NCBI GenBank assembly: GCA_937934135.1
Contig: CALHAW010000029.1
Span: 1 to 36,025, forward strand
Reading direction: 5' to 3'
DNA: 36,025 bases
Origin: an uncultured Alphaproteobacteria bacterium
Lineage (GTDB): Bacteria; Pseudomonadota; Alphaproteobacteria; Micavibrionales; Micavibrionaceae
Part shown: positions 1,138 to 27,005 of the stretch, in pieces
Numbering within the stretch: the first letter of the stretch is position 1
Layout: each line of letters begins with the position of its first letter
Made by a program: the position numbers and the translations under genes
The notes under the pieces: model-generated
What the model was told of the DNA's origin: nothing
What the model saw: only the letters and a program-made list of their open reading frames with translations
Databases searched by the model: none

Positions 1138-1706
1138 TGTGTGGGCCTTGGCTTTGGTTTTTCATTGTAAGATAAATATAACGGGTGTTGCGGGTGCCCG
1201 GCCTTGGTCCAGCGGAATGCCATGGGTTTTGTGTTGTATTCTTTAAATAACTGCCATATATGCGTTTCGCGGGCTTGAAATGTGCCGTGTGTTCCCCATC
1301 CGCAAATGATTTGATATTTACCGGGATCATGCGCCGCGGCTAAATCAAGATATTGTTTTATAAAACCATCGTTATATGGCCCCACCGGATCCCCAGCGGC
1401 CCGCATATCGTTTGGATCGGTTGCCCGGAATGCAAATATGTTCAATATTACTAATCCGCCATAATCGTTATTACGGGCGCGGGTTTCGCATCTTTGCACG
1501 GTTGGATCATTTTGGCGTTCCGTGGCGGTTGATGGGTTCAACATGATCATCACCAAAACGGGTTTCGTCATATCCCAATACCGGGCCAAAAAATATCGGT
1601 ATTTTTCACATTTGGAATAAACTGCAAAATTTTTGGTGCCATCCAGCGCGGCAAATTCGCGGCGGATATATCTGTTTTTTCTCTTTTGGCGCGTGCGTTC
1701 TGTCAT
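1134..1706 (-). CDS. DUF1643 domain protein
   Basis: A 190-residue protein with the hallmark features of DUF1643: a VMIMLNPSTA strand, DPTVQRC, GGLVILNIFAFRATDP, a GWGTHG loop and a C-terminal GHPQHPLYLS. The family is common in phages and near restriction or nucleotide-modification loci, and its biochemical role is not established. I chose the start at 1706 (MTERTRQ) because it forms an ATGA overlap with the stop of the upstream DUF1064 gene. A start at 1757 is also open but would overlap that gene by over 50 bp. Confidence 0.85.
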   Translation of the reverse strand: MTERTRQKRKNRYIRREFAALDGTKNFAVYSKCEKYRYFLARYWDMTKPVLVMIMLNPSTATERQNDPTVQRCETRARNNDYGGLVILNIFAFRATDPNDMRAAGDPVGPYNDGFIKQYLDLAAAHDPGKYQIICGWGTHGTFQARETHIWQLFKEYNTKPMAFRWTKAGHPQHPLYLSYNEKPKPRPTQ

Positions 1707-2143
1707 GGCATTGTTTTCCAATTCTTGCCATCCTTCATCACAATTTGCACACGGCACGCATAAAGGCTTTCAAATACACGGATGCGGAATTTACTGCCTT
1801 CATCCCTATATCCTTTGCAATCTTCAATAATTTCATCGCCTGTTTTAACATCGGTATAAACAAAATCGGCGGTATAAACTGCGGTTTTATCGCGTTTTTT
1901 ACCAACCATAATTGGTGTTTTTTTATCACCGTTTAACGCTTCACCGATGCCCCCGGTGCCAACGGCGTATAATTCAAACTTCACTTGGCGGCGTATATCG
2001 CGCAATTCACCAGCGCGTTCCAATAATTTCAAATAATAATAACGGTCCATTTCCGTTTTGCTGTCATACACAAAACCATCATGCCCGGTGCGGGCGGGTT
2101 TTGGTGCAACTTTGGAATATTGGTGCCAACTGTTTTTTGCCAT
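1703..2143 (-). CDS. DUF1064 family nuclease-like protein
   Basis: A 146-residue protein of the phage DUF1064 family, which resembles small PD-(D/E)XK / VRR-type nucleases and is often proposed as a resolvase-like enzyme. Visible landmarks are FVYDSKTEMDRYYYLKLLE (about residues 24-42), a VKFEL strand, TADFVYTD and IIEDCKG, where the acidic and lysine residues would form the active site. The start at 2143 follows GGGTAAGGA with a 7-nt spacer; a longer in-frame extension to 2245 exists but would translate that site. It is the first gene left of the DnaA-box cluster, which suits a role in recombination or replication-intermediate processing. That role is inferred. Confidence 0.8.
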   Translation of the reverse strand: MAKNSWHQYSKVAPKPARTGHDGFVYDSKTEMDRYYYLKLLERAGELRDIRRQVKFELYAVGTGGIGEALNGDKKTPIMVGKKRDKTAVYTADFVYTDVKTGDEIIEDCKGYRDEGSKFRIRVFESLYACRVQIVMKDGKNWKTMP

Positions 2144-2161
2144 TGATTTTTCCTTACCCAT
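2140..2161 (-). repeat. 22-bp repeat carrying an extended ribosome binding site (copy 2)
   Basis: Identical to 198-219, and it precedes the DUF1064 start codon at 2143. Identity beyond the ribosome binding site itself suggests recent duplication of the leader or selection on the whole element. Confidence 0.8.
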
Positions 2162-2265
2162 GAATTGGTTGTTTCGGTCTATCACCGCAACATCAATTTC
2201 AATCACCATAATCGCAATCATCACACCTTGGCAAGCCCTTTTCAAATTTGTCCAGCGCCGCGGCC

Positions 2266-2529
2266 TATCTAATATAATATTAAGAATATATTAAAAGGTT
2301 GTTGATAGTAGTAGTGCGCGGGATAACTTTTTTGAACAAATCGTGAATCACACAACATTTTGTGTGCCGGCATTTCATCACAACCACTACATGTTGTTTT
2401 TTTGGGGTGTGAATAAGTGGTGTATAACGGTGTATAAACTGTGAATAAATGGTGGACTTTTCCACAACACCGTTTCCCACATTTTAATCAACAGGGTTTT
2501 ACACATGCTTATTCACAGGGTTATGCACA
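2266..2529. other. Putative replication origin with DnaA-box cluster
   Basis: Four exact matches to TTATNCACA lie within 122 bp: TTATTCACA on the minus strand at 2408-2416 and 2440-2448, and on the plus strand TTATTCACA at 2509-2517 and TTATGCACA at 2521-2529. Four more one-mismatch boxes lie among them: two TTATACACC at about 2419-2427 and 2429-2437 on the minus strand, TTTTCCACA at about 2458, and TTTTACACA at about 2497. The flank holds perfect inverted repeats (CACACAA-CATT-TTGTGTG near 2349-2366; GTGGA-CTTT-TCCAC near 2453-2466). A very AT-rich stretch at 2266-2297 is a candidate unwinding element. The region lies between leftward and rightward transcription units. A host-DnaA-dependent origin is inferred; no phage initiator gene is adjacent. 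Confidence 0.7.
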
Positions 2530-2678
2530 AGCGGGCATGCTTTTGGCGTGTCAACGCAAATGGCTTTTATGCCTTCATTGATTAAGCATTCCAGCGCAAC
2601 CATAAAATCAATGTTTTCGCGGCTTGCGTAAGTTATTACGGCGCGGCGGGTGGTTGGTGATATGGTGTTAATGTCCAT
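2499..2678 (-). CDS. Small hypothetical protein beside the origin
   Basis: An open frame of 59 codons (starts MDINTISPTTRRA; contains YASRENIDFMVALECLINEG) reading left from near promoter P3. Its predicted helical composition and the presence of the genome-wide CGCTGG motif inside it (ALE codons) support coding. However, I see no good ribosome binding site, and its 3' end overlaps two of the four exact DnaA boxes. The central helix pair could suit a small DNA-binding protein such as a ribbon-helix-helix type, but that is speculative. It may equally be non-coding origin sequence. Confidence 0.45.
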   Translation of the reverse strand: MDINTISPTTRRAVITYASRENIDFMVALECLINEGIKAICVDTPKACPLVHNPVNKHV

Positions 2679-2733
2679 CGGATTGGCTCAATAAAAAAAT
2701 AATTAAAAAAAATGTGCGCAAATACTTTTAGTG

Positions 2734-2762
2734 TTTACTTTTACGCAATATGTGCGTATATA
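2734..2762 (+). promoter_or_regulatory. Promoter P3 with palindromic operator
   Basis: The plus strand reads TTTACT (2734-2739), a 17-nt spacer and TATATA (2757-2762). The palindrome ACGCAATATGTGCGT (2743-2757) fills the spacer and touches the -10 box exactly as in P1 and P2. A partial upstream site (AATGTGCGCA, 2711-2720) may be a weak second operator. It would drive the two rightward genes at 2801-3215. Confidence 0.75.
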
Positions 2763-2800
2763 TTACATCATTAGTAATCAAAAACCTTGGGAAAATCAAA

Positions 2801-3052
2801 ATGAATACACAAGAAAATGCCCTTTTGCGGGGGGCGATTCGTTCTATGGATCATGCCGCGGAAATGCTTAATAAATTAGGTTTAACAGGCATGGCGGGCC
2901 ATGTTCAATTTTGCGCCGATGATGCCGCCATATTGCTTGATGATCATGCAAATGATGATACGGCACCGCCTGTTTATGTGGATGCCCCTGTGGTGGTCCA
3001 GCGCGTGCCGGGCAATTGTGTTGGTGTTTGGCAAGGGGGATGCAATGTATAA
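2801..3052 (+). CDS. Hypothetical protein, first rightward gene
   Basis: An 83-residue protein (MNTQENALLRG...). The first half looks helical (SMDHAAEMLNKLGLTGMAGHVQFCADDAAILLDDH), and the second half is rich in proline and valine and ends GVWQGGCNV. The start at 2801 is preceded by TTGGGAAAATC, a weak ribosome binding site; an upstream in-frame start would lie inside the P3 -10 region. It is one of only two rightward genes and lies directly after P3. I do not recognise a family. Its position, opposite the early leftward genes and under the shared operator, suggests an early regulatory or host-takeover role, as inference only. Confidence 0.65.
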   Translation: MNTQENALLRGAIRSMDHAAEMLNKLGLTGMAGHVQFCADDAAILLDDHANDDTAPPVYVDAPVVVQRVPGNCVGVWQGGCNV

Positions 3053-3215
3053 TAAAATAACAATCCAGCGCGGCAAACACATGAAAATATGGTCTTTTAA
3101 ACCGTCCGGTGGCGTGGCGCATGTTACACAATTAAATTGCGCGAATCCTGTAATGAAATGGTTGTTTCATAACAAGCCGATTCCATCACATGAAAATGGG
3201 ATTATCCCAAAATAA
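3045..3215 (+). CDS. Hypothetical protein, second rightward gene
   Basis: A 56-residue basic protein (MYNKITIQRGKHMKIWSFKP...). The ATG at 3045 overlaps the end of the preceding gene and has AAGGGGG 5 nt upstream, so coupled translation is likely. It ends about 95 bp before a rightward terminator. No family is recognised. Both rightward genes contain CCAGCG on the given strand, i.e. the genome-wide motif keeps its orientation although the genes are reversed. Confidence 0.65.
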   Translation: MYNKITIQRGKHMKIWSFKPSGGVAHVTQLNCANPVMKWLFHNKPIPSHENGIIPK

Positions 3216-3309
3216 TATATTGCATCCAGCGGGCCGGGCGTGCATATTGTCGTTAGTTCGATAGTTCTCGTCCTTACCCAAGGTTTGTAACCTTATTGAA
3301 CGGCATTAA
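3216..3309 (+). other. Non-coding 3' region with hairpin
   Basis: No credible gene on either strand. A perfect hairpin AAGGTT-TGT-AACCTT lies at about 3280-3294, and the leader sequence GGGTAAGGA appears on the minus strand at 3273-3281 without a gene after it. With the terminator at 3310-3340, this may be a structured 3' UTR or a small RNA; nothing identifies a known RNA family. Confidence 0.3.
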
Positions 3310-3340
3310 CCCCATGTGCTTGCACATCGGGGTTTTTGTT
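3310..3340 (+). terminator. Intrinsic terminator for the rightward genes
   Basis: A stem CCCCATGTGC / GCACATCGGGG (one-base bulge, 2-nt loop) is followed by TTTTTGTT. The T run is only on the plus strand, so this ends the transcript from P3 after the gene at 3045-3215. Confidence 0.85.
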
Positions 3341-3536
3341 TGTCTAAAATCTGCTATCATCACATTTGGTTAATGGTTCCCGCATCTCCTTTCGTGTGCT
3401 GTCATTCTATCAGTTCATAAATGTTTGCAAATCATTCCCCCTTAATGCGTGCCATGGGTTATACGGCGCAAAGGGCTATTGATAAACCCGGCGGGATTAA
3501 ATCATAAACGGGAATTTGTTGAAATATAGATAAAAG
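3341..3536. other. Gap without a recognised feature
   Basis: About 200 bp between the rightward terminator and the bidirectional terminator. I see no gene of convincing length, no tRNA and no promoter of good quality. A 20-codon open frame on the plus strand (from 3443) has no ribosome binding site. Confidence 0.5.
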
Positions 3537-3568
3537 AAAACCCGCATGGCTTATCACCAGCGGGTTTT
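3537..3568. terminator. Bidirectional terminator after the lysis operon
   Basis: A perfect 9-bp stem AAAACCCGC / GCGGGTTTT with a 14-nt loop. The A and T runs are part of the stem, so it can work on both strands. It lies 34 nt past the stop at 3602 and closes the late leftward operon. The loop side holds one CGCTGG motif. Confidence 0.88.
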
Positions 3569-3601
3569 CAACTTTATGGGCATTGCGTGCCCTGCGCATT
3601 C

Positions 3602-6637: not shown

Positions 6638-7927
6638 CTATTCATAAATAATATTGATTGCGCCATTATCAAACGTATTGGTTGCGCTTCTTGTAATTCT
6701 AAGCATATCCAATTCACCGGATAATGTGACAACGCCCGTGCTTATTCCGGCTTTTGCGTTGTCCTCAACAACGCCCGCACAATTCCATTTATTGCCCGCC
6801 ATTCTTGTGATAACAAATTGCCCGGTGTGCAAATAACTGGCATTGGCGTTTCGTGCAACAAAACCCGCGGTTGATGTTATTGTTGTTCCGTTTGTATCAG
6901 TAAAGCGGGAATCATAACCACTTGTTTGTGGTGATCCACCATCACCAATTTGGATTAAAAAATCATTCGTTCCGTTTAATGAAACGCGATCAAATAAAAC
7001 CGTTATGCGGTTTGTGCCCGCGGGAATTGATGTAAAATCAAAGGCGGTGCCCGATGTGGTTGCAACTTCTGTGCCCAATTCAATGCCGCCGCCGCCAACA
7101 ATGGCGGTGCCATCCGCCCGCATGTAATTAACCAAACGCACCACGCCCGATGCTTCACCGCGCACAATAAACACATCCCCCGCGGCGGTTGTAATATCGG
7201 CACCACTTGGCAAAATTAATGATGCGCTATTCACCAAATCAAATACGCCGGATGCACGGCATGTGCGTTCTTGCCCTTCAACCAGCGTTATTGCGGAAAC
7301 ATTTGTTGTGCCTGTCAATGTTACATAATCGCCCGTGGCGGCATTTAAATTTAACGTGGCGGCGGTTGCAATGCTTGTGGCTATATTATGCGGGCGGGGA
7401 TTCATTAAAACAAAATCCGTGCCATCCCATAAAATACGCACGGCGGTTCCGGCAACCAATGATCCTTTTGGTGCCCCCACCTTGCCCGCACCAAGGTTTG
7501 TTTTGATTGTTTCGGGATCAAGGCCGGATATTGCCATTGTTGGTGATGCATTTGTGTTTGTGCTGTTTACAATAAAATCAAATACCATCCCAGCAGTTAG
7601 CGCGGCAATGGCGGGTGTTGGTGTCAATGTCAATGCATTGGCGGATCCGGCGGCGGTTCCTGCCCAATCACCAACATTTTCAGGAATAAAAAGGTTGTTT
7701 GTTGTGTCTATGGTTCCAATTTTTATATCTTCGGATCCATCAAATACATTCAAATCCCAATTCGCATTGGTGTTATCAATCCACATCATGCCCGCAACGG
7801 CGTATGATGGGCGTTCATCGCCGGAATGCAATGAATGCAATGCATCGCGCCATGGCTCAATATTGCTATTGATTAACGTGGTGCCCGGTAAAGGGCTTTC
7901 AAGATTTCCAAAATCAAATTGTGACAT
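6638..7927 (-). CDS. Tail fibre / receptor-binding protein
   Basis: A 429-residue, glycine-, alanine- and threonine-rich protein with very few charged or cysteine residues, typical of trimeric beta-structured fibres. The N terminus (FGNLESPLPGTTLINSNIEPWRDALHSLHSG) resembles the attachment region of many phage tail fibres. The centre has VGDWAGTAAGSANALTLTPTPAIAALTAG, a repeat-like segment. The C terminus (TRMAGNKWNCAGVVEDN...) would be the receptor-binding tip. Its ATG overlaps the stop of the tail-tip gene. It has only one CGCTGG motif. Confidence 0.8.
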   Translation of the reverse strand: MSQFDFGNLESPLPGTTLINSNIEPWRDALHSLHSGDERPSYAVAGMMWIDNTNANWDLNVFDGSEDIKIGTIDTTNNLFIPENVGDWAGTAAGSANALTLTPTPAIAALTAGMVFDFIVNSTNTNASPTMAISGLDPETIKTNLGAGKVGAPKGSLVAGTAVRILWDGTDFVLMNPRPHNIATSIATAATLNLNAATGDYVTLTGTTNVSAITLVEGQERTCRASGVFDLVNSASLILPSGADITTAAGDVFIVRGEASGVVRLVNYMRADGTAIVGGGGIELGTEVATTSGTAFDFTSIPAGTNRITVLFDRVSLNGTNDFLIQIGDGGSPQTSGYDSRFTDTNGTTITSTAGFVARNANASYLHTGQFVITRMAGNKWNCAGVVEDNAKAGISTGVVTLSGELDMLRITRSATNTFDNGAINIIYE

Positions 7928-10900
7928 TACCCGTTTTTCCTTCCAAATCCTGATGCAATATAATCGAATGTACGTGAAACATAACCACCCGCGGTTTCAT
8001 TATATACTTTGAATGAAAAACCACCACTATTTTTTGTGATGTATTCAACCTTATCATCAACCGCGCCATCCTGAATTGTAATGGCAATGGCGGGCGTTTG
8101 CTTAAACATTGGATCAAATGTAATATCCGCACCCTCAATCGGCACATGTAAATCTTCGCCGCGCTCTATTCGGTCCGGCATATCAACTTTTACGGATAAT
8201 TCTGTAATTTGCGGGCTTACGTTTTCTTGCAATGACTGTAATTTAATGCGGAATTGAATGCCCCAAAACGTTATGGTTCCGGCTTCTAGCGGTGTCCAAT
8301 CACTCCAAACGGGTGATGCGGTTGGATCGGTTTGTGTTGTTCTATATTCTAAACCAACGGCCCATCCATCAACGCCGATTCCAAAAACATCATCAACGGC
8401 AAACACATCATCCATCGCAAATATATCGTTTTGCCCCTGCCCAAACACATCATCCATCGCAAATATATCATCAACGGCAAATATATTATTAATAAACACA
8501 CCATTGGCAACCACCGTGGCGGAAACAAATGAAGGGAATACCGCGGTTAAATCTAAATCATTATCAAAATAATAATAACCAACATCAATTTCGGGATCCG
8601 ATAAAAGCACGGTGTTATTATCAACAAATGTGTTTTCGGTTGCTCCGGCAAATTCCGGGGATTCCTGCAATACGGCAACGGCATTGGCAACCACACCGGG
8701 ATCATACGTTATAATTGCCGTGGCGGTATCTGATTCATTGCCTGTTAAATCAACGGCCTTAATCAAATATGTACCGCCCAAAAATGGCGCCGTATATTTG
8801 GTTTCATATATGCGTTCATCCAGCGTTTGCGCCGTGGCCCATGATGCGCCCGTGTAAACATTTGAATATTTGATATGATAATGTGAAAAATCAATATCAT
8901 CGTTTTTATCCCATTTGAAAAATGAAATATTATCAACCACATTGATGTTAAATCCTGTGACTTGATCGGGCGCACCGGATGCACCGATGAATAGGTAACT
9001 ATTTAATTCCAGCGGTTTTGAATATGTGTTTGTTCCAATGCGGCGATAACGGATATGAATATCATAACGCACGGCATCATCAAGGCCCGTGATCACAAGC
9101 CGTTCCGGTGTTGCTTCCAATACATTGGCATTGGTGAATGCATCGGTGCCCGCAACGCGCACTTTAACTTTGGTTTCAATCAAACCATCATTTTGATTTT
9201 CCAGCGTAAACACGGCCCGTGGCGTAAATGATCCATCTGAATTAACCAACATCACGGATTCATTACTTTGTTCATCCAACAATAGCGGCGGCACCGGGCG
9301 TATAAATTCCAGCGGGGTTGTTATATTGCTATTAAATGCCGGAATGGGTGAATTTTCTGCATCAAATATTTCGGGGGCATAATCAACGGCGGTAATCCGT
9401 GCGGTCAAATCATCTTGTGGTTCTATCCGGGTAATTACCAAATCCAATTCCCCCCCGGCTTCAACCACATAACACAAATCCCCAGCGGCGGGGGCATCAA
9501 TCACATCAAATGGTTGTGCAAAATTAAACGTCTTTGTTGACAACCCCGCGTTTGTTTGGATTTCTTTATATAATTGTGTTCCATCGCCAAGGCGGATCCG
9601 TACATAATACATTCCACCATTTGGAATTGTGATTGTATCATCCAGCGTTATGCCTGTGACGGTGTTTGGTGAATCGCCGGATGTAATAACCTCTTTTATT
9701 CGTCCATCGCCAACACCAACGATTGGCGCATCATGCTCAAACTTTACGCGATCACCGCGCAACGCCACAAGGTGTTCAACATCTTGCATGAATGAATGTG
9801 TTTCCGGGCGCAATTTTATTGATGCCAAATGGCGGCGGGCGGTTTTAAAGGCCAAATCCGCATTGGTGCAACTTTGTAATTCCAGCACTTCAAACAATGT
9901 GGCGTTGCTTTCATCATAGCCATCATCATAAACAATCAATTCATCTTGAATAAATCCTTTATCTTTATTACGGAATTGCACACGCAAGGCATGCGGCGTT
10001 TCCGGGTAAAGCATTTCGCCCGAATATCCCCATGAATTGCGGGGCGTTATAACGGTTGTTATATCGTCTTTGATTTTATCTATAACAACGGTGCGTTTAC
10101 CGTCTACAATCGCCGGGGATGCGGCACCAGCGGCGCAAATGTCACGGATAATATCATCAACGGATGTTTCATAATCTATCACGCGGTTATATGTGTAACC
10201 CTGCTCTACGCAATGAATGCTCCACGCTTCCAAATCTTCAATGTTTAATTGTTCATCGGTTAACGGCTTATCATTGGCTTCGCCTTGATAAACATAGCGG
10301 TAAAGGGCCGCGGGGTTCGATGTGATGCGGTCCACCCATTCATCCAAATTGGGGTCATAATCAGGGATAACGGTGCTTGCAATCACATTAAATTGTTCTA
10401 ATGCACTATTTAATTGATCGGTTGCCTTGATGCGCATTGCGGTTCCGGTCAATCCAACCAAATTAACAGGCGATTCATACCGTACAGATTTAACCGCGGT
10501 CCATGCGCTTTCATCTAAAACTTGATCGGATGTTGAATTGGTTGTTAAACGGCGGATCCGAATATCATATTGCGCCCGTTCCGGGAATACTACGCGCAAC
10601 GATTTTCGCAACGCTTCGGATTGATTTGCAAATATATCCAAATCATTAATTAAAATTGCACCATCGGAAATTGTGAATTGTGTTGAATTTATTTTTGAGG
10701 GCACAAAAGATGCCGAATTTTCCAGCGTTGATCCAAATAATGATGATTGGCGCACATCGGAAATTGTGAATGATGTTACCAATGCCCCGGTTGGTTGCCC
10801 AAATGCGTTTTCTTCTTTTGCGATTGTTACAACAACATTTGCAAGCCGGATGGATCCCGATGGAATAGGTTGTGCGGTTTGAAAACCGTTTTGCCCCTGC

Positions 10901-12021
10901 ACAATGGATATGCGCCCGCTATATTTATTTACAACAACAACATCCGTGCGGGTTCCCCCGCCGCCGCGGTTGTTATAACCCCGCGCCACAACCGGTGTGA
11001 TGTTATATGTGCCGCCGCTAAAATCTTTATATGCCGCCGCGCCCGGACTCCAATTTTGCGGGCTTTCGCCTGTCTTTGCGTATTGCATTTCCAGCGTAAC
11101 ACGCCGCCCGTTGCGGCCCCCTTGATCGTTGAATTGCGCAAGTCCGCGGGGGAATGTAATATCAACCACCGCTTCATCAACATTGGGTGCCGTGGTGCGC
11201 GTTGTAAATCCATCATCTTTATTTAAAACAATGCTTAAATCTTCTTGAAAAACATCGTTCACATATAGTTCGGATCCCTCATGTAAATCACCATCCAATT
11301 TATGTTCAATATCAAAATTATCAAATTCATCCAGCGCGGTTTCACCAATGCGCAAGTTTTCAATAACTGTTTTGTTTGCAAAACCATATGTGAATAATTG
11401 GCGCACGTATTGATCATTATTTTCGGCTTCGGTAAAGGGCCGCGCCGCCTGTAATGGAAACATGCGGTTGGTGCCCAAATTAATTGGCACCACGCCATAT
11501 GGGTTTAATGAATTGCGAGCACCTTCAATAAATTGTGTTGGTGATGATGTTGGATTGTCTACCCGATTCACACCAGCGTTTGAAGGTTTTGGGGGCGGGG
11601 CCAATGCTGATATTGCCAATCTACCCAGCGCACCAATTCCGGCACCGATTAATTGGATGCCAATTGTGCTTGTAACGCCAACCGCGGCACCAATAATGGG
11701 GGCCAAATAAGGGGCCGCAATCAACACCGCAATTGATAAAAGACTTGCAATGGGGTTTTTACCGCCGCCGCCTTGCGGCACTACACGCACGTTAACCAGC
11801 GTGTTTGCTTTTGGCTTAACCTTATCCCAATGTTCAACCGGGATTATTTCACCATTGATCATAACAACGGCACCAAGGCCCGCCGCCTTATATCTTTCCG
11901 GCACCACATTATCAACGATTTGTTGCAATGATGATCCTGGCAATTGAAACGCTTGCGTTTGCAAATTGCTAAATGGCAACGGTGCCGATACTACATTGAT
12001 TTTATTTTGGGCATTCTGCAT
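7927..12021 (-). CDS. Tail tip / host-specificity protein (J-like)
   Basis: A 1364-residue central tail-tip protein. The N terminus resembles lambda I/K-associated tail proteins (MINGEIIPVEHWDKVKPKANTLV), then comes a hydrophobic stretch (about 110-150, LLSIAVLIAAPYLAPIIGAAVGV). The large J-type region follows, with putative fibronectin-like modules (for example VTGFNINVVDNISFFKWDKNDDIDFSHYHIKYS). Near residue 1200 is a tandem repeat of the type (I/V)FA(M/V)DD(V/I)F. I chose ATG at 12021, 20 bp inside the NlpC gene, with AGGA upstream; the TTG at 12030 is too close to that site. It would bind the receptor and trigger DNA release. Confidence 0.88.
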   Translation of the reverse strand: MQNAQNKINVVSAPLPFSNLQTQAFQLPGSSLQQIVDNVVPERYKAAGLGAVVMINGEIIPVEHWDKVKPKANTLVNVRVVPQGGGGKNPIASLLSIAVLIAAPYLAPIIGAAVGVTSTIGIQLIGAGIGALGRLAISALAPPPKPSNAGVNRVDNPTSSPTQFIEGARNSLNPYGVVPINLGTNRMFPLQAARPFTEAENNDQYVRQLFTYGFANKTVIENLRIGETALDEFDNFDIEHKLDGDLHEGSELYVNDVFQEDLSIVLNKDDGFTTRTTAPNVDEAVVDITFPRGLAQFNDQGGRNGRRVTLEMQYAKTGESPQNWSPGAAAYKDFSGGTYNITPVVARGYNNRGGGGTRTDVVVVNKYSGRISIVQGQNGFQTAQPIPSGSIRLANVVVTIAKEENAFGQPTGALVTSFTISDVRQSSLFGSTLENSASFVPSKINSTQFTISDGAILINDLDIFANQSEALRKSLRVVFPERAQYDIRIRRLTTNSTSDQVLDESAWTAVKSVRYESPVNLVGLTGTAMRIKATDQLNSALEQFNVIASTVIPDYDPNLDEWVDRITSNPAALYRYVYQGEANDKPLTDEQLNIEDLEAWSIHCVEQGYTYNRVIDYETSVDDIIRDICAAGAASPAIVDGKRTVVIDKIKDDITTVITPRNSWGYSGEMLYPETPHALRVQFRNKDKGFIQDELIVYDDGYDESNATLFEVLELQSCTNADLAFKTARRHLASIKLRPETHSFMQDVEHLVALRGDRVKFEHDAPIVGVGDGRIKEVITSGDSPNTVTGITLDDTITIPNGGMYYVRIRLGDGTQLYKEIQTNAGLSTKTFNFAQPFDVIDAPAAGDLCYVVEAGGELDLVITRIEPQDDLTARITAVDYAPEIFDAENSPIPAFNSNITTPLEFIRPVPPLLLDEQSNESVMLVNSDGSFTPRAVFTLENQNDGLIETKVKVRVAGTDAFTNANVLEATPERLVITGLDDAVRYDIHIRYRRIGTNTYSKPLELNSYLFIGASGAPDQVTGFNINVVDNISFFKWDKNDDIDFSHYHIKYSNVYTGASWATAQTLDERIYETKYTAPFLGGTYLIKAVDLTGNESDTATAIITYDPGVVANAVAVLQESPEFAGATENTFVDNNTVLLSDPEIDVGYYYFDNDLDLTAVFPSFVSATVVANGVFINNIFAVDDIFAMDDVFGQGQNDIFAMDDVFAVDDVFGIGVDGWAVGLEYRTTQTDPTASPVWSDWTPLEAGTITFWGIQFRIKLQSLQENVSPQITELSVKVDMPDRIERGEDLHVPIEGADITFDPMFKQTPAIAITIQDGAVDDKVEYITKNSGGFSFKVYNETAGGYVSRTFDYIASGFGRKNG
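8386..8500 (-). repeat. Tandem repeat within the tail-tip gene
   Basis: A 27-bp unit at 8401-8427 recurs exactly at 8443-8469 (42-bp offset), with shorter related units on both sides. In protein these give five or six copies of a seven-residue unit like FAMDDVF / FAVDDVF around residue 1200, broken once by GQGQND. Confidence 0.85.
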
Positions 12022-12403
12022 GGCGGGCAAATCCTATAACCTTATTTTTCCAGCGCAATTGATTAAATTTTTCATGCGCGGTTCCTACATCTTTTGCACA
12101 ATGTATCATATGCCCCTTATGTGTGACTATACCAACATGCATTGGCATCCCCGCCATATTTAAAATAATAACATCAAATGGTTGTGGTTTATCAGGATGC
12201 ATCCAGCGGGAATCCCGTTCATTTTTTATTGTGGCGGCTAAAATCTCACGGTCATTGGTTGTTTCATAAACTTCTTCATAGCCCGGCAATTCAATCCCTA
12301 ATTGCTCTTTATAAATTAATTTTACTAATCCCCAGCAATCACACCCATCGTGCCCGCGGCCTTTTTCTTTAAACGGTGTTTTTATATATTCATTCCACCA
12401 CAT
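12002..12403 (-). CDS. NlpC/P60 peptidase of the tail tip
   Basis: A 133-residue protein with the NlpC/P60 papain-like layout: nucleophile Cys23 in DCWGLV, His89 in MHVGIV, and a third polar residue in GHMIHC (about 98-102). Such proteins sit in the tail tip of lambda-like phages (K-like) and may cut murein cross-links during DNA entry. It lies between the DUF1833 protein and the tail-tip protein, the standard order. Its 3' end overlaps the tail-tip start. Confidence 0.9.
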   Translation of the reverse strand: MWWNEYIKTPFKEKGRGHDGCDCWGLVKLIYKEQLGIELPGYEEVYETTNDREILAATIKNERDSRWMHPDKPQPFDVIILNMAGMPMHVGIVTHKGHMIHCAKDVGTAHEKFNQLRWKNKVIGFARHAECPK

Positions 12404-12903
12404 TAGAACACCCCCGGAAAATCACTTGGCGTGAAACGCCGGGCCGGGAATGGTTCTAAATCATAATATTCAACCGATATATCACCCGCCACGGTCAATG
12501 CATCATATGTGACACGCTCCAATCTAAAATCAGGAATAGACACTTCCAGCGTGTCCACATCGGATGCCAACACCACTTCAATTGTGATTGATAATGCGGA
12601 TGTTGCTTGTCGCACCGCGGCAACAATTTCACGGGATATATTATCAATTGATATGGATGCACGCGCCACGCCGGAATCATCTTGCATTGGCAAATTGATT
12701 GTAAAGGGTAAAAACACAAATTCATTGCCGCGTGAAACAACGCCGCGCACCCCGGCATCGGGCAATACTTCTTTTGGATCACTGGCAACACGAATAGGGG
12801 TTGTAAAATTTTCATGCTCAATCGTGACAAGCATTATAAAAACTTCATCCGTTTGTTGCGCATATAACGCTTGTTTGGCGGCGTTTGATAGATTTCTAGG
12901 CAT
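12403..12903 (-). CDS. DUF1833 minor tail protein
   Basis: A 166-residue protein that fits DUF1833: LSNAAKQALYAQQTDEVFIMLVTIEHENFTTPIRVASDP at the N terminus, a central IDNISREIVAAVR, and a C-terminal VERVTYDALTVAGDISVEYYDLEPFPARRFTPSDFPGVF. In phages of this type it is a tail-tip component placed between the distal tail protein and NlpC. The stop overlaps the next start. Confidence 0.85.
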   Translation of the reverse strand: MPRNLSNAAKQALYAQQTDEVFIMLVTIEHENFTTPIRVASDPKEVLPDAGVRGVVSRGNEFVFLPFTINLPMQDDSGVARASISIDNISREIVAAVRQATSALSITIEVVLASDVDTLEVSIPDFRLERVTYDALTVAGDISVEYYDLEPFPARRFTPSDFPGVF

Positions 12904-13256
12904 TACGGTAAAATTTCCAATTCAATGGTTGCGTTGTATAATACACCTTCTTGTTCATCCCATGTTGGCGGGGTTTCGGGCTTAAACCGTGCGGTAACTG
13001 CCGCCCCGGTGCGCGGGTGCGTATAATCAAAATCAACGCTTCCCGAAAATGTGGTGTTATCATAAAAATCATCCAGCGTGGCAATTTGATCCGGGGTGCA
13101 TTTCATTATAAATGATATGGGGCGCACATTTGCCGTGGTGCGGCGGCGCACTTTTGCCGGGCCTTTATCCATTTGCGATGCAATTGAATTGTTTGGCGGG
13201 GTTTCACGCAAGGTGTTTAATGCGGGTGCGGGTAATGATGCGGGCCATTGTGCCAT
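12903..13256 (-). CDS. Minor tail protein (distal tail candidate)
   Basis: A 117-residue protein (MAQWPASLPAPALN...) placed between the tape measure and DUF1833. Features are KVRRRTTANVRPISFIMKCTPDQIATLDDFYD and FDYTHPRTGAAVTARFKPE, seen in short minor tail proteins of lambda-M type position. It starts 6 bp past the tape measure stop. Function in joining tube and tip is inferred from synteny. Confidence 0.75.
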   Translation of the reverse strand: MAQWPASLPAPALNTLRETPPNNSIASQMDKGPAKVRRRTTANVRPISFIMKCTPDQIATLDDFYDNTTFSGSVDFDYTHPRTGAAVTARFKPETPPTWDEQEGVLYNATIELEILP

Positions 13257-13262
13257 GATTTG

Positions 13263-15086
13263 TTATCTCCGAATCCGTGATTGGTTTTGAAATGATGATA
13301 GTGCCGCATTGGTGCGGGATCCTTTTTTGGCGATGTTTCCGGCAACTGCTTCATCAATCAAAATGTTCAATTCCGTTCCGTTGCCATTATCACGCGCCGT
13401 GGCTTCAACATTTGCCCCAGCGTTATTGTTGATAATTACATTTACATTTCCACCCATTCCGCCATTGCGCATCTTTGCGGCATCGTATGCGGGCACAATC
13501 ATTTCCCCGCGGTGAATCTGCGCGATCATATCTTTTGGCACTTCATTGGTGCCACGGGCAAATGGTGTAATGCCGCCAAATAATCCCCCAATGGCATCCC
13601 CTATGCCGCCAAATAATCCATCCCATTCCCCGGCAACAATGTTTGATCCACCACCACCGCCGCCGCCTAAACTTCCAATGGCACCCGTTAAAAAATCATC
13701 CAATGGTTCGGTAACAACCCGGCGCAATAAAATTCGTTGTATATCATCGGCAAGGCTTTGCAAAACATCGCTAAATTTCTTGCCTTCAATTACCGCATCT
13801 TCAAATGCGGATGTGAACGTGCGGCCCAATTCCTTAGCGTTATCAACGGCTTCTTTTTGCGCATCCGTCATTTTTTCGGTTTCTTTTGTAACCTTTTTTG
13901 TTTTTTCCGCCTTATCATCAAGAATATCATTTAAATCCAGCGCATCACGGTTTTCATCCCCTGCGCCGCGGGCTTCGGCACGCGCATTGGCTTCTGCTTG
14001 TATCTTCTCAATCTTTTTCGCCATCGTTTCAAATTTGGATGCTTCGGCATTTAAATCTTTTAATTTTTGAATGTTTGATGATGCCGACATTTGCGCCGCT
14101 TCATTCAACGTCAACATGCCTTCTTTTAATGAATCCCCCATTTCCTTAAAGCCGGGCACACGGGCAACGATTTCACCAAATTTAAACAGGCTTGTGGATG
14201 CGTCCAAAATAGCCAAATCAACCGCCAATGAAAATTCAGTCATTAACGCCTTTAATCCCAACACCGCCATGCGCACAATATCAATGGCCTTGCCCGCCAC
14301 ACTCATTGCGGATTTAATCGCATTGCCAAATGTTTCCGCATCAAAACCGCCTTCCAAAAACAGGTTTGAAACGTGTGTAACCAGCGGGGCCAAATATACG
14401 GCGATTTGATTGCCTAATCCCGCCACGGCTTGCCCTACACGCGCAAATGTATCATTGGCTTCCTCAACCTTTGATGCATCAATACGGGATAGGCTTATGC
14501 CCCATTTATCATTAAATTCGCGGGCCGCTTGCACGTTTTCAACATAGCCATCTAACATGTTAATCACTTGCCGCCCGGATCGGCCAAAAATTTCCAGCGC
14601 GGTTGCGGTGCGCAATGTTGGTGATTCAATTTCACTCAATGCCACGGCAATGGCATCAAATTGTTGATCGGGGCGCATGCTCATTAATTCATTCACATCC
14701 AATCCCAGCGTTTTAAATGATCGTGCGTAGGTTTCTAGCCCGCGTGATGCTTCCACAATGGATCGTTGTGATTTTGTGATCATGTTGCCTAATTGATCTT
14801 GCGTTATGCCCGCTTCGGATCCGGCAAGGGCCAAGGCTTGAAATTCACGAATGTTCACACCCAGCGCATTGGATAATTTCGCGGTTTCATCAATTACCCC
14901 GGCTTGCCGCTTTGCAAGGGCACCCAGCGCAACACCTACACCCGCCACGGCAACACCAGCGGCGGCGGTGCCTAATTTAACGGCCTTACCAAACGATTTC
15001 ATTGATTTTCCGGCCCGCTTCATGCCCTTATCAAATTTCGTGGTATCGGCGTTCAAAAATGCGGTTAATGTGGTTGCGGTTGCCAT
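13263..15086 (-). CDS. Tape measure protein
   Basis: A 607-residue protein that sets tail length and is ejected with DNA. The N terminus (FLNADTTKFDKGMKRAGKSMKSFGKAVK) is the classical tape measure start. An alanine/glycine/valine hydrophobic stretch follows at 37-55, then long helices (INIREFQALALAG, a KKIEKIQAEANARAEA coiled coil at about 355-375). The end is glycine-rich (GSLGGGGGGGSN, then GGIGDAIGGLFGG), with FARGTNEVPKDMIAQIHRGEMIVPA near the C terminus, a motif common in tape measures. It is on the short side for a siphovirus, predicting a tail near 90 nm by the usual 0.15 nm per residue rule. Confidence 0.9.
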   Translation of the reverse strand: MATATTLTAFLNADTTKFDKGMKRAGKSMKSFGKAVKLGTAAAGVAVAGVGVALGALAKRQAGVIDETAKLSNALGVNIREFQALALAGSEAGITQDQLGNMITKSQRSIVEASRGLETYARSFKTLGLDVNELMSMRPDQQFDAIAVALSEIESPTLRTATALEIFGRSGRQVINMLDGYVENVQAAREFNDKWGISLSRIDASKVEEANDTFARVGQAVAGLGNQIAVYLAPLVTHVSNLFLEGGFDAETFGNAIKSAMSVAGKAIDIVRMAVLGLKALMTEFSLAVDLAILDASTSLFKFGEIVARVPGFKEMGDSLKEGMLTLNEAAQMSASSNIQKLKDLNAEASKFETMAKKIEKIQAEANARAEARGAGDENRDALDLNDILDDKAEKTKKVTKETEKMTDAQKEAVDNAKELGRTFTSAFEDAVIEGKKFSDVLQSLADDIQRILLRRVVTEPLDDFLTGAIGSLGGGGGGGSNIVAGEWDGLFGGIGDAIGGLFGGITPFARGTNEVPKDMIAQIHRGEMIVPAYDAAKMRNGGMGGNVNVIINNNAGANVEATARDNGNGTELNILIDEAVAGNIAKKGSRTNAALSSFQNQSRIRR

Positions 15087-15087
15087 G

Positions 15088-15351
15088 CTATTGATTCCTT
15101 TGTTGGTATCGGCTGAAAATGCCTTTTATTTCATCTTCATCAATGCGTTTATCTTGGCTTTCATTATAGCCGAATAGGAATTTTTTTAAAGGCGGGAATT
15201 TTTTGCCGCTAACACCTGTTAACATTGCGTTGGTCCACATGCCCCATGCGGTCATATTATGATCATATTGGGTTTTCTCATTATGTGCGGCGGCGCATAA
15301 ATTGAATTGATACGGTGTTAAGGTCCAAAATATATCGGGGGATAAACCCAT
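15088..15351 (-). CDS. Tail assembly chaperone, frameshift part (T-like)
   Basis: An 87-residue stretch from the first ATG (MGLSPDIFWTLTPYQFNLCAAAHNE...). The L/M-G-L-S-P-x-x-F-W-x-L-T-P pattern is typical of the second tail chaperone in gene-transfer-agent-like tails. The same frame is open upstream without a stop through VKPNDEIADALKSAFY back to the A8 run at 15400-15407 inside the end of the previous gene. It is therefore probably expressed mainly as a -1 frameshift fusion with the gene at 15396-15755, as for lambda G-GT, and binds the tape measure during tail assembly. Confidence 0.78.
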   Translation of the reverse strand: MGLSPDIFWTLTPYQFNLCAAAHNEKTQYDHNMTAWGMWTNAMLTGVSGKKFPPLKKFLFGYNESQDKRIDEDEIKGIFSRYQQRNQ

Positions 15352-15395
15352 ATAAAACGCGGATTTTAATGCATCCGCAATTTCATCATTGGGTT

Positions 15396-15755
15396 TTACT
15401 TTTTTTTCTTGCCGCTTGCCGCTTTTTTTTTCGGTGCGGCCTTTGCGGATTCGGCGGGATCTTCACCACCAAAATATGCAAATGTGATTGCGTTTTTCAA
15501 GGCTTCCACGGTCAATGCAAATGGCGGGGATGCTTCCACAATCTTTTCAACGGTAAATTCCGGGTTGTGCTTTTGAAGGCCAATGGATAACACCACCGCA
15601 ATTTTGCTTAAATCACGCCCGTTAACAACGGCATCAATTTCCGTGCCGCTTAATTCGGTTTGTAGTTTACCCAGCGCATTCCAATCAAAAACAATCGTAG
15701 CATCAACGCCGCCGATTTTTAATTTTTCTTCGCCCTTATATTTATTTGCTGTCAT
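15396..15755 (-). CDS. Tail assembly chaperone (G-like, TAC family)
   Basis: A 119-residue protein matching the gene-transfer-agent type tail chaperone family (Phage_TAC_11-like): GGVDATIVFDWNALGKLQTELSG at the start, then AVVLSIGLQKHNPEFTVEKIVE and ALTVEALKNAITFAYFGGE. The end is lysine-rich (AAPKKKAASGKKKK) and encoded by two A runs (A9 near 15421-15430, A8 at 15400-15407), both possible -1 slip sites. The start at 15755 has GGGTAAGGA 7 nt upstream. Confidence 0.82.
   Translation of the reverse strand: MTANKYKGEEKLKIGGVDATIVFDWNALGKLQTELSGTEIDAVVNGRDLSKIAVVLSIGLQKHNPEFTVEKIVEASPPFALTVEALKNAITFAYFGGEDPAESAKAAPKKKAASGKKKK
15400..15407 (-). promoter_or_regulatory. Probable -1 ribosomal frameshift site
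   Basis: On the minus strand the gene ends GGC AAG AAA AAA AAG TAA. Slipping back one base on A8 reads AAA GTA AAA CCC and continues without a stop into the T-like frame at 15088-15351. This is the standard position and frame for tail chaperone frameshifts. The A9 run about 20 bp upstream could serve the same frame. Confidence 0.75.
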
Positions 15756-15932
15756 GGTTTTTTCCTTACCCTTTCAAATTAAAATATGGCTTTTGCGGTG
15801 TGGTGCCATTAACCACTATTTTTAAATGCGGGCATTTATCAAGTCTTAAAAAACGCGGGCCATAAATGAAATTCAAATATGGCTTGCCTCTTGCCTTACC
15901 GCCACCCGCGGGATGTATTACACAATATATTA
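15756..15932 (-). other. 177-bp gap with a 36-50 codon open frame
   Basis: Between the tail tube and chaperone genes, one minus-strand frame is open from inside the end of the tail tube gene to a stop just before the chaperone ribosome binding site. It would encode HPAGGKARGKPYLNFIYG... and end QKPYFNLKG. No ATG is present in frame; a TTG near the middle follows AAGAGG. KPYLNF and KPYFNL look like an internal duplication. It could be a -1 extension of the tube protein, a TTG-started small gene, or chance. Confidence 0.3.
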
Positions 15933-16352
15933 TTATGCTTCGGTGATTGTCAATGCGCCTGTAATTTCCAGCGCAAATGATCCATCAACTTTGGAATCAA
16001 CACCACCGCTTTGCGGGTTGCTCATAACAAACGCTTCAAATTGAACGGTTGATGTGTCCGAATATGTAAGTAAAAACAATTTTTTACCCCCGGCGGCTTT
16101 CGCGGCGCGACATTCTTTTTGCCCGGCATCGGATGGCAAATGGTTTACATCCAGCGAAAATCCGCCGTTGTCCTGTAAACCCTGCAATTTTTCTTTTGCG
16201 GTTGATTGCAAATGTGTCACATCAATAATTGCGGCTTGTCCATCAAATCCGCTAAAATTGGTGATCTCGCTAATCTCTGTTAGGGCCGCGGGGGAATCAC
16301 CAACATCCCCAACTTCTAATTTAAATCCCTGTGTCGGTAATGCATCTGACAT
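15933..16352 (-). CDS. Major tail tube protein
   Basis: A 139-residue protein with the features of short siphovirus tube proteins: a LEVGDVGDSPAALTEISEITNFSGFDG start, IDVTHLQSTAKEKLQGL, then FVMSNPQSGGVDSKVDGSFALEITGALTITEA at the end. It would form the hexameric tail tube. Its place between the DUF3168 completion protein and the chaperones is the usual one. Confidence 0.88.
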   Translation of the reverse strand: MSDALPTQGFKLEVGDVGDSPAALTEISEITNFSGFDGQAAIIDVTHLQSTAKEKLQGLQDNGGFSLDVNHLPSDAGQKECRAAKAAGGKKLFLLTYSDTSTVQFEAFVMSNPQSGGVDSKVDGSFALEITGALTITEA

Positions 16353-16363
16353 GGTGTGTTCCT

Positions 16364-16768
16364 TTATTGTTTAAATGTTACGATGTAATTGCCCAAACTT
16401 CTAAATAAATAAGGTTCTTCGGTTTGATCAAATGTATCAAATTCATTTTGCAACGAAACGCCAGCAATTTCAACAAACTTTTGTGGGCTATCATCACCAT
16501 ATTGCACGGTTCCGGCATAACCGTCCATAATTTCTTCAATTTCCGCCCCCAATTCCTTTGCCGCATAATATTCATCGGCATATGCATCAACCTGAATTGT
16601 GCATTGTGCATAGCCGGATGGCCCATTAATGGCCCGCCAGCGTTCGGAATCCACACGTTGAAAAACAATAAACGGCCCCTTTGCGTTGTCCGGGGCGCGG
16701 GCCGCATAAACCTTTTCATCCGCAAGGCTTTTTAATAATTCATATATGGCATGTTCCACTAATTTCAT
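16364..16768 (-). CDS. Tail completion protein (DUF3168)
   Basis: A 134-residue protein of the DUF3168 type: AIYELLKSLADEKVYAARAPDNAKGPFIVFQRVDSER at the N terminus, a VDAYADEYYAAKELGAEIEEIMDG helix and a C-terminal EEPYLFRSLGNYIVTFKQ. Family members cap the tail tube at the head-proximal end. Its ATG overlaps the stop of the gene upstream. Confidence 0.87.
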   Translation of the reverse strand: MKLVEHAIYELLKSLADEKVYAARAPDNAKGPFIVFQRVDSERWRAINGPSGYAQCTIQVDAYADEYYAAKELGAEIEEIMDGYAGTVQYGDDSPQKFVEIAGVSLQNEFDTFDQTEEPYLFRSLGNYIVTFKQ

Positions 16769-17190
16769 TTTTTCACCATCTTGTTAAATTCTTTGTCAAT
16801 GCCCTTGCGCAAAACCTCTTTTAATTGATCCATCATTGGACCTTGTGAACGCTCAAATGCGGGCACAAACCACGGTTGCGCGGGAATAAACCGGGTGCCA
16901 TATTCTAAAAAATAACCCCAAAATGCCTTGCCCGTTGAAACAAATGCGGCTTTGCGTGAACGCTTTGTGCGGGCTTTACCAACTTTGATGTTTTTATATA
17001 ATTGCCCATATTCTTCCGATGCTTGTGAAGGCACGGCACCACGCGGCGCGGATGATTTAATTTCTTTCCGGGCCTTGCGTACCGCGGATGTTACGGCCTT
17101 TTGCAACACACGATTATGTACCTTGTCCGGCAATTGGTTTAATGCCTTGTCCAGTTCTTTCAATCCATCAACTTTTGTTGTGACTTGCAT
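16765..17190 (-). CDS. HK97 gp10-like tail-joining protein
   Basis: A 141-residue basic protein. GLKELDKALNQLPDKVHNRVLQKAVTSAVRKARKEIKSSAPRG is the typical start of the HK97 gp10 family, and GYFLEYGTRFIPAQPWFVPAFERS is its conserved C-terminal half. It acts in joining head and tail. Its start overlaps the stop of the head closure gene. Confidence 0.9.
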   Translation of the reverse strand: MQVTTKVDGLKELDKALNQLPDKVHNRVLQKAVTSAVRKARKEIKSSAPRGAVPSQASEEYGQLYKNIKVGKARTKRSRKAAFVSTGKAFWGYFLEYGTRFIPAQPWFVPAFERSQGPMMDQLKEVLRKGIDKEFNKMVKK

Positions 17191-17528
17191 TATTCAACCC
17201 CCACGCCTTCGGCGGTTAACCACAAATAACCCATGCGGCGGGCCGTATGATCAACATAAATAACATTGTAATAATTGCCCATATATTGGATCCGGTCCGT
17301 GTTTTTTACATCATCACGATAACGGATGCGCACGCGGATTGTTTCTTGCGCGTTGTTGCGGGCGGATTCAAATGTTTCGGCACCCTTTTGGCTTATGACT
17401 TCGGCCCAAAATGGCGTTGGCGGTGAATTGCCGGATAAATCGGTATATGTTACGCGCAACGATCCCGAAACATTTGTTTCGGTTCGGCTTTCAATATAAA
17501 TGTTTTTATCTAATTTTCCTGCGCTCAT
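17190..17528 (-). CDS. Head closure / head-tail joining protein
   Basis: A 112-residue protein of the phage head-tail joining family (SPP1 gp16-like): AGKLDKNIYIESRTETNVSGS, FWAEVISQKGAETFESARNNAQETIRVRIRYRDDV and DRIQYMGNYYNVIYVDHTARRMGYLWLTAEG. The RYRxxVxxxDRI(x)Y core is diagnostic. It acts as the stopper under the connector. In this genome it is separated from the connector gene (20430) by a 2.3-kb fibre cassette. Confidence 0.88.
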   Translation of the reverse strand: MSAGKLDKNIYIESRTETNVSGSLRVTYTDLSGNSPPTPFWAEVISQKGAETFESARNNAQETIRVRIRYRDDVKNTDRIQYMGNYYNVIYVDHTARRMGYLWLTAEGVGVE

Positions 17529-17540
17529 GGCACCATCCTA

Positions 17541-18107
17541 TCATATAATTTCGCGTAAATTTACTTTTTTAAAGCAATTAAGGTTTGATGATGGGGATGC
17601 ATTAAAAACGGGCACCGGGATCAATGGTGCGGCCTTTTCAAAATGCTTGATCCATTTATCATACTGACTTGATCGGACCACCAGCGGGGGCATATCATCA
17701 TCAAAACAATGTTTTGGCCCGGCGGGTTCATGGCCCATATCGTAACCCAATAAAACAACCTTCTTTGCACCCATCATAACGGCCAAATTTAAGATTTGAA
17801 AACCTGAATTTCCACCCGTTGCCAACACGCCATTTTCGCCCCAAATTAAATCATGGTCAACCGGGATGTGTGTTAAACCCCATTTGGCGCATGTGCGCTC
17901 ACATGGGCAAAATTTTGGGCCATGATACTGCGGGCATCCTCTATAGGCATCCCACCAGTTAAAATCTGCGGCATAATGCACATGCGCCCATGGTGCCATA
18001 AACACCATTTCGTTGACCACATAAACGCGGCCTTTGCCTTTGCAATAATCAATATCGGATTGTGTAACGGATGGGCCGGATGCAATGCAAATCGCTATAT
18101 CATCCAT
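17541..18107 (-). CDS. MptE/DUF115-like protein
   Basis: A 188-residue Rossmann-like protein: DIAICIASGPSVTQSDIDYCKG at the start, a WGENGVLATGGNSGFQILNLAVMMGAKKVVLLGYDM core (about 96-130), and several cysteines and histidines in the middle (CPCERTC). This pattern resembles the DUF115 / 6-hydroxymethylpterin diphosphokinase MptE-like group, which includes phage proteins and sialyltransferase-like sugar enzymes. The start at 18107 follows AAAGGAATTAAA. It ends the fibre cassette, so modification of fibres or a surface sugar is possible. The substrate is not predictable here. Confidence 0.68.
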   Translation of the reverse strand: MDDIAICIASGPSVTQSDIDYCKGKGRVYVVNEMVFMAPWAHVHYAADFNWWDAYRGCPQYHGPKFCPCERTCAKWGLTHIPVDHDLIWGENGVLATGGNSGFQILNLAVMMGAKKVVLLGYDMGHEPAGPKHCFDDDMPPLVVRSSQYDKWIKHFEKAAPLIPVPVFNASPSSNLNCFKKVNLREII

Positions 18108-26247: not shown

Positions 26248-26961
26248 TCATTTTACAACTTTTGGAAACGATATAAGGCCCATCTTATCATCCGCATTTT
26301 TTATACCGTTTTCAATTTCCTTTTGTTTGCCCCTGCGCTTTTGAACATCGCGGGTTTCACCTTCGGTGGCGCGGGCGTGCAATGATAAATTGCGGCGCAA
26401 GGCAATTATGTTTTTGGTGTAAGTGTCAATTATTTGTTTGCGCGGATTAATATAGGTTGATGTTACAATCACTTCGGCTTCTTTGATTACTTGCTTTGTT
26501 TCCTTATCTTTTATCGCCGGAATGATTTGTTTGCGTTCCAATATACTTCCTTCTTTGCGCATTTTGCGTTGTTCCAAATCTAAATCATATAAATAGCGCG
26601 TCAAATACGCCGCCATTTCCAATGTGTGGTTTGTCCATTCGGTTAATGCAAATTCATCAATCACGGAATCCCAAAATGGCATTTCTGCTTTACGCAATTT
26701 TACGTGTGCGGGTGGTTCAATCTCTTTGAATGCGCCTTGCGCGGCTTCAACCGCAACCGATACGGAATCAGAACGGGCGCGTTTACTTGATTTTGATGCA
26801 ATTGGTGCCTTTTTCTTGTCTGTTTTTGTTTTTTTAACGGCCTTTTTCGGCACTTTTTGCGCTTTTTTAGGGGTTTTTTGTGCAGTTTTTGCACCTTTTT
26901 TTGGTGCCTTTTTTGTTGACTTTTTGGAGTCTTTCTGCGCCTTTGGGGGGGTGTCTGTCAT
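26248..26961 (-). CDS. terS: Terminase small subunit (P27-like) with lysine-rich tail
   Basis: A 237-residue protein directly before terL. From about residue 75 it fits P27-like small terminases: PPAHVKLRKAEMPFWDSVIDEFALTEWTNHTLEMAAYLTRYLYDLD, then INPRKQIIDTYTKNIIALRRNLSLHARATEGETRDVQKRRG. The first 60 residues are unusual: repeated KK, PKK and AQK units, like a histone H1 tail, perhaps adding non-specific DNA binding. I chose ATG at 26961; AAGAGGA is 10 nt upstream. Confidence 0.85.
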   Translation of the reverse strand: MTDTPPKAQKDSKKSTKKAPKKGAKTAQKTPKKAQKVPKKAVKKTKTDKKKAPIASKSSKRARSDSVSVAVEAAQGAFKEIEPPAHVKLRKAEMPFWDSVIDEFALTEWTNHTLEMAAYLTRYLYDLDLEQRKMRKEGSILERKQIIPAIKDKETKQVIKEAEVIVTSTYINPRKQIIDTYTKNIIALRRNLSLHARATEGETRDVQKRRGKQKEIENGIKNADDKMGLISFPKVVK

Positions 26962-27005
26962 TTTCAAAAATTCCTCTTAAAAAACTGTGTTAGATAAAAA
27001 ATAAA

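Follow-up and report, generated by a model that had tools for sequence, protein, structure and literature searches.

Tailed phages are usually expected to bring at least an initiator or a helicase loader of their own to DNA replication, with the O and P proteins of lambda as the model. The window analysed here, a 36,025-base contig from an alphaproteobacterial bin, raises the question of whether a phage might dispense with both. A first-pass annotation made from the letters alone had singled out a cluster of DnaA boxes in a genome in which it recognised no replication enzymes, and had proposed that this phage uses the DnaA protein and the entire replisome of its host. The window ends in a 141-bp direct repeat and therefore represents a circular contig of 35,884 bp. 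Matches of its terminase, portal, protease and capsid proteins identify the phage as HK97-like, and HK97 is among the 25 best named terminase matches listed, all of which lie at about 62%.

The phage is one of 43 contigs (C29) in a bin of 1.72 Mb that is 97% complete. The DnaA protein of this bin is 79% identical, among the matches listed, to DnaA of a Micavibrio-labelled MAG and of another alphaproteobacterial MAG. The bin also holds a second match to GapR, on a contig other than the phage; among 14 control genomes this family was matched only in Caulobacter. Based on these two matches, the host is probably a Micavibrio-like alphaproteobacterium, with the connection between phage and host resting on binning. 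The host oriC was not found: the 20 kb around the dnaA gene of the bin, where the gene order appears by eye to be dnaA-dnaN-recF-gyrB, contain no box cluster, and the bin gave no match to hemE. Two exact DnaA boxes placed head-to-tail within at most 25 bp occur at only two places in the whole bin, both of them inside the phage array.

Over the window, DnaA boxes with up to one mismatch are present in ordinary numbers (49 against a chance mean of 52.3). Eight of them, four exact and four with one mismatch, are packed into the 122 bp from 2408 to 2529 (Table 1). The best 130-bp stretch accordingly contains eight boxes, and 300 dinucleotide shuffles gave a maximum of five, reached once, so that the clustering described in the annotation is confirmed and exceeds anything seen in the shuffles. 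Similar clusters at other places in the genome, named beforehand as evidence against an origin, are absent, the richest 130 bp elsewhere in the window holding two boxes. The reported inverted repeats are equally real and reflect box orientation, the left four boxes all lying on the minus strand and the right four all on the plus strand. Less exact was the placement of the cluster between divergent units. On the side of the AT-rich flank, the nearest gene, encoding the DUF1064 protein, does read away from the array; on the other side, a conserved leftward open reading frame (ORF) of 59 aa overlaps the right arm, which therefore lies partly within the 3' end of a gene whose last codons contain right-arm boxes. 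A promoter scan of 1900-3600 returned promoter-like sites no more often than in shuffles. At 2709-2762, upstream of a rightward ORF at 2801, an operator-like sequence of 16 bp with the core TGTGCG occurs in two copies that are 81% alike.

Table 1. Coordinates of the predicted origin and of phage genes discussed in the text (positions in the window).
Feature	Position	Strand	Remarks
DUF1064 / Holliday-junction-resolvase-like gene	1703-2161	-	phrog_190, 1.4e-25; PF06356; 63% in relative
Putative DNA unwinding element	2266-2300	.	least stable 35-mer of the phage circle
DnaA-trio-like run, TAGTAGTAG	2306-2314	+	three units of 5'-TAG-3'
Weak DnaA-box-like site, TTATCCCGC	2318-2326	-	three mismatches; from alignment with relative
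Exact DnaA boxes, TTATNCACA	2408, 2440, 2509, 2521	-, -, +, +
One-mismatch DnaA boxes	2419, 2429, 2458, 2497	-, -, +, +
Left arm	2408-2448	-	boxes 2408, 2419, 2429, 2440; start-to-start 11/10/11 bp
DnaA box between arms, TTTTCCACA	2458-2466	+	one mismatch; relative has TTATTCACA
Right arm	2497-2529	+	boxes 2497, 2509, 2521; start-to-start 12/12 bp
59-aa ORF	2499-2678	-	conserved beside array; 46% over 52 aa in relative
Terminase small subunit gene	26248-26967		array some 11 kb away round the circle
Superinfection-immunity-like small protein	30970-31179	-	49% identical in relative
DUF3310 protein	32666-33007	-	PF11753; 59% in relative
GapR-like DNA-binding protein	33004-33387	-	PF10073, 6.6e-24; 65% to relative

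The AT-rich flank proved more pronounced than the annotation had claimed. In a nearest-neighbour stability scan, none of the 35,884 windows of the circle was less stable than 2266-2300. A gap of 17 bp separates this segment from the weak box at 2318, and one of 107 bp separates it from the box at 2408, where the array begins.

The annotation had suggested searching for the cluster in related phages. Scanning IMG/VR with the neighbouring DUF1064 protein uncovered one relative, IMGVR_UViG_3300002060_000008, that matches the window at 63% for DUF1064 and 76% for terminase and whose 49-bp end overlap suggests that it, too, is a complete circular genome. It carries, at the corresponding gene junction, ten boxes, five of them exact, at 7387-7595 in two convergent arms, and its best 130 bp contain nine boxes against a maximum of five in 200 shuffles. 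Its least stable 35-mer occupies the orthologous place (7613), and the second least stable (7207) is found on the other side of the array. The cluster is thus present in this one relative with the same place, spacing and orientation, and two convergent arms with box steps of 10-12 bp characterise both genomes. Unlike the window, in which no such gene was found, the relative has a tRNA-Met (CAT) gene at 7740-7816, placed between DUF1064 and its origin region.

The pair of phages also allowed us to ask which positions within the array are kept. Window and relative were aligned with MAFFT blind to the boxes, and boxes were picked from the window alone. Identity amounted to 56/64 at fixed box positions, 30/63 between boxes and 2/8 at the free N, with Fisher p values of 1.4e-6 and 4.3e-4. 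When boxes were placed at random, the fixed and the N values were not attained together in any of 20,000 trials. Across register shifts from -6 to +6, the fixed count was highest, and that of N lowest, in the unshifted register; on the fixed count alone its margin is modest, since neighbouring registers on one side also retain 47-53 of the 64 fixed positions (53 at -5). Because the fixed positions are kept, the free N is not and the spacers are intermediate, this comparison of two genomes points to selection for DnaA recognition at the array. Other searches of IMG/VR, using DUF1064, its alignment, the 59-aa ORF and the origin pattern, led back to the same relative contig and to no further array-bearing relative; they also gave L305-L307, three contigs in which exact boxes do not cluster. 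The 142 genomes searched from the order of the host yielded, for DUF1064, the window and two weak matches without a box cluster in the flanking stretches. The origin segment produced nothing useful against named phages (two matches of 25-27 bp, E 0.3) and no match against plasmids, and the small ORF of the relative had no match in named phages.

Closer to the unwinding element, the two phages differ in detail. The weak box TTATCCCGC aligns with an exact TTATCCACA in the relative. The run TAGTAGTAG is unique in the circle on both strands, with looser runs of three TA[G/A] units at two other places, and the relative has a TTG run in place of the TAG triplets. Strict trio units between box and unwinding element therefore occur in one of the two genomes (three in the window, none at the relative's origin). 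In the basal unwinding system of Bacillus subtilis, the order is understood to be unwinding element, DnaA-trio and DnaA box, and the window resembles it in its sequence of AT-rich element, TAGTAGTAG, short stretch and box. It departs from that system in that its nearest box has three mismatches, whereas the relative has an exact box but TTG triplets. One report describes DnaA-trios as repeats of 3'-[G/A]AT-5' that lie near whichever box is closest to the unwinding element, and names TTATT and TTGT as further motifs, read in single-stranded form by DnaA of E. coli (PMC10797057). The motif TTAA-N7-TTAA marks Caulobacter-type origins controlled by CtrA; a link to CtrA was rejected here, as the occurrence at 2280 is one of two in the circle and the origin region of the relative has none.

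A cumulative GC-skew plot had been suggested as a further check. Raw skew tracks gene strand. After detrending, the minimum falls on the DUF1064 side of the array in both phages, at a distance of 1.3 kb in the window and 1.9 kb in the relative, with an amplitude equalled in 297 of 500 block shuffles for the window and 5 of 500 for the relative. Rightward genes next to the array act as a confounder, as neighbouring genes of opposite direction would be enough to draw the minimum to this side. GC skew does not argue against an origin at this place, gives it no clear support and is at best weakly consistent with one.

Which proteins the phage could contribute was examined with profile searches. 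In total, 60 ORFs, representing 33,029 of 35,884 bp (92% of the circle), were scanned against PHROGs, 20 of them also against Pfam and 10 also against NCBIfam; the larger gaps between them (at least 200 bp) hold only ORFs of up to 70 aa, and small proteins of new type could escape such an HMM screen. Apart from one chance-level NCBIfam match, none of the 60 ORFs matched a helicase, primase, polymerase, initiator, recombinase or integrase family, and no dnaA gene was matched in the phage genome. At the level of HMMs and for these 60 ORFs, the annotation was therefore right that replication enzymes are not visible. Its comparison with plasmids or phage-plasmids was not borne out, as no partition, Rep or integrase family was matched among the same ORFs. 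The chance-level match, between 33403-33903 and DNA polymerase III gamma/tau, was discarded (E 0.046; 11.8 bits, where the cut-off is 1190). A hidden primase was likewise rejected for 35075-35635, whose 186-aa product has a Pfam TOPRIM match (0.046) below cut-off; this protein weakly matches an intron endonuclease in the PDB, and its structure model is unusable (pLDDT 39). Other window genes encode DUF1643, MT-A70 and other methylases, HNH, HTH, endolysin and structural proteins.

The non-structural region of the relative (6665-18069) contains 31 listed ORFs of at least 45 aa, and the ten that were scanned comprise methylases, a pyrophosphatase and unknowns, with no initiator, helicase or replication enzyme among these 10 of 31; DnaB_C had no match in the record. 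A phrog_16 'DNA helicase' assignment on its two methylases was set aside, being outscored by methyltransferase families and located near the far end of the profile. Outside structure, packaging and lysis, the two phages have in common the DUF1064, 59-aa, GapR-like, DUF3310, HTH, HNH and superinfection-immunity-like proteins and a few small ORFs, each of at most 171 aa.

Among these shared proteins, the GapR-like one is a candidate for assisting replication forks. Its profile built with the relative matches solved Caulobacter UPF0335 chains, which are GapR. Phages with GapR are already known, as there are matches in 102 of 50,697 phage records and a 2025 report mentions GapR in an Erythrobacter phage (PMC12185513). 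The product of the 59-aa ORF is possibly a small DNA-binding regulator. Its two-helix model (pLDDT 72) has no significant fold match, and reading it as a ribbon-helix-helix protein is only a guess from that model.

From these data, the array region is very probably a replication origin of one kind or another. More specifically, we consider it likely that 2266-2529 is an oriC-type phage origin that is fired by host DnaA and copied by the host replisome. Direct use of host DnaA, as the annotation had proposed, is the reading best supported by the sequence comparisons, given the stability minimum, the conservation in the relative and the lack of any matched initiator. In such a scenario, host DnaA would bind both arms, which converge and are in helical phase, as well as the weak box close to the unwinding element, and a DnaA filament would form from the arms to the weak box and the triplet run. 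The 35-bp AT-rich element next to this run would then melt, and host DnaB helicase and replisome would be loaded to begin theta replication. The phage would supply helpers only and neither an initiator nor a helicase: the GapR-like protein would probably ease overtwisting ahead of the forks, the DUF1064 resolvase-like nuclease would probably act on branched DNA, and the origin-overlapping 59-aa protein would perhaps modulate DnaA.

The proposed origin shares several features with chromosomal counterparts. E. coli oriC consists of two oppositely oriented DnaA arrays and an unwinding element, a layout reportedly addressed by Rozgaja 2011. The phage region resembles chromosomal oriC in its convergent phased arms, in the least stable, AT-rich segment nearby and in its mixture of exact and weaker sites; it differs in being located on a phage genome without a matched dnaA gene and in being a prediction from sequence. 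Lambda ori is likewise a phage origin at which the host replisome is used in the end. Lambda employs the phage initiators O and P instead of DnaA, according to one report (PMC5043065). No O- or P-like family was found in the 60 ORFs of the window, and the same PHROGs library does detect an O-like initiator in another phage, G148. For Pseudomonas phage vB_PseuGesM_254, the publication presents an Ori-Finder-predicted origin that, like ours, has DnaA boxes and an AT region, and that also has a CtrA motif; unlike our phage, it has a DNA polymerase A gene marked, and its origin is a prediction only (PMC11512268).

We then compared how DnaA arrays are distributed among other phages and genomes. Among control loci chosen as the best 80 of 460 for GapR and the best 80 of 333 for TerL, mostly partial contigs, five sites or three exact sites within 150 bp occurred in none of the 79 other GapR-phage loci (1.24 Mb) and in none of the 79 other TerL loci (0.70 Mb). 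A pattern of three exact phased boxes is nevertheless present in at least 120 IMG/VR stretches; a script recovered 119 of the 120 listed and counted between 3 and 11 exact boxes near each, in both orientations in 21 of the 119. Of 18 other array records longer than 36 kb among 80 listed, nine (records may be fragments) encode a DnaB-family helicase. G148, a phage with a 39-bp end overlap, combines six TTATTCACA boxes with the O-like initiator; the boxes are spaced exactly 11 bp apart at 17944-18007 (L300), upstream of a repressor-like gene. A different circular phage (G053:C65, L337+L338, 77-bp end overlap), from a genome of the same host family, has four exact boxes and one near box at 10719-10801, all in one direction and adjoining an HNH-like gene about 0.55 kb from a terminase-like ORF; some of its ORFs look by eye like initiator and ERF-type genes. 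In view of the DnaB_C matches in nine of 18 records, the O-like initiator of G148 and the initiator-like ORFs of G053:C65, we rejected as a rule the idea that arrays mark phages without replication genes. An array by itself is therefore no proof of dependence on host DnaA, since it also occurs in phages with an initiator or helicase of their own. What distinguishes the present lineage is the full origin layout together with the lack of a recognised initiator or helicase.

G148 bears directly on the alternative that survives best. Here, the region would still be an origin and DnaA an accessory to it, and the true initiator would be a small protein of the phage that has escaped recognition, for instance the HTH protein of 75 aa or the product of the 59-aa ORF. 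In favour of this, G148 has six phased boxes and also an O-like initiator, the 59-aa ORF is conserved and overlaps the array, and the two phages share 75% identity in the HTH protein. RepA is the initiator at plasmid or P1-type origins, and P1 oriR and iteron plasmids unite DnaA boxes, a Rep initiator and iterons. The phage is like them in having DnaA boxes at an extrachromosomal origin and unlike them in that neither a Rep-like match (60 ORFs) nor iterons (2100-2900) were found. No repeat family exceeds two copies in 2100-2900, a count from a tool that can miss diverged repeats, and the conserved small proteins match no initiator family. We regard this alternative as unlikely.

Less probable still is a DnaA-responsive regulatory or decoy region, which would titrate DnaA against host replication or place the adjoining leftward genes under DnaA control. 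The array does lie upstream of the leftward DUF1064 gene, and 38 of the 142 host-order genomes carry phased exact-box pairs (a backward control pattern gave no matches), those viewed being at various gene sites. Regulation or titration, however, needs neither a nearby stability minimum nor a triplet run, both of which are kept in place in the relative, and it would leave the phage with no visible origin. That the boxes belong by chance to another phage signal, such as an injection-stop or packaging site, is highly improbable, since the gene for the terminase small subunit is some 11 kb away round the circle and a packaging signal would leave unexplained why the positions read by DnaA are constrained and N is free, even though the G053:C65 array lies close to a terminase-like ORF and one report describes an injection stop signal with repeats, inverted repeats and DnaA boxes (PMC13250531).

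Returning to an oriC-type origin fired by host DnaA, we somewhat favour a broader interpretation of the lineage as a true minichromosome. Such a phage would have a complete oriC-type origin with host DnaA as sole initiator, would have given up all enzymes of initiation and of the fork, and would have kept only helpers for topology and branched DNA (the GapR-like protein and the resolvase) and a small origin-embedded protein; more widely, phased DnaA arrays would be an overlooked and recurrent feature of uncultivated phages. The literature that we searched on phage and DnaA origins, with most subscription papers lying outside the search, describes no phage with an oriC-type origin and without its own initiator, which is no proof of novelty. 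If the interpretation is true, an oriC-only phage would tie its copying to the DnaA cycle of the host, and one may ask how such a phage reaches a high copy number while the host controls DnaA. It would also offer a natural minimal oriC replicon for asking what alphaproteobacterial DnaA needs. For other uncultivated phages, the survey suggests that DnaA-box arrays could serve as a searchable origin marker.

Two further observations concern the wider occurrence of arrays. In the chromosomes of the host order, one of the four stretches with phased pairs that were viewed is near a gene that looks by eye lexA-like (G141). Among the at least 120 IMG/VR stretches, 10 of the 14 array contigs with at least eight exact boxes fall into one tblastx group (L087, L121, L123, L141, L154, L173, L177, L182, L197 and L199), in which up to 11 exact boxes lie upstream of genes that by eye are packaging-like, and the L121 record of this group encodes a DnaB-family helicase.
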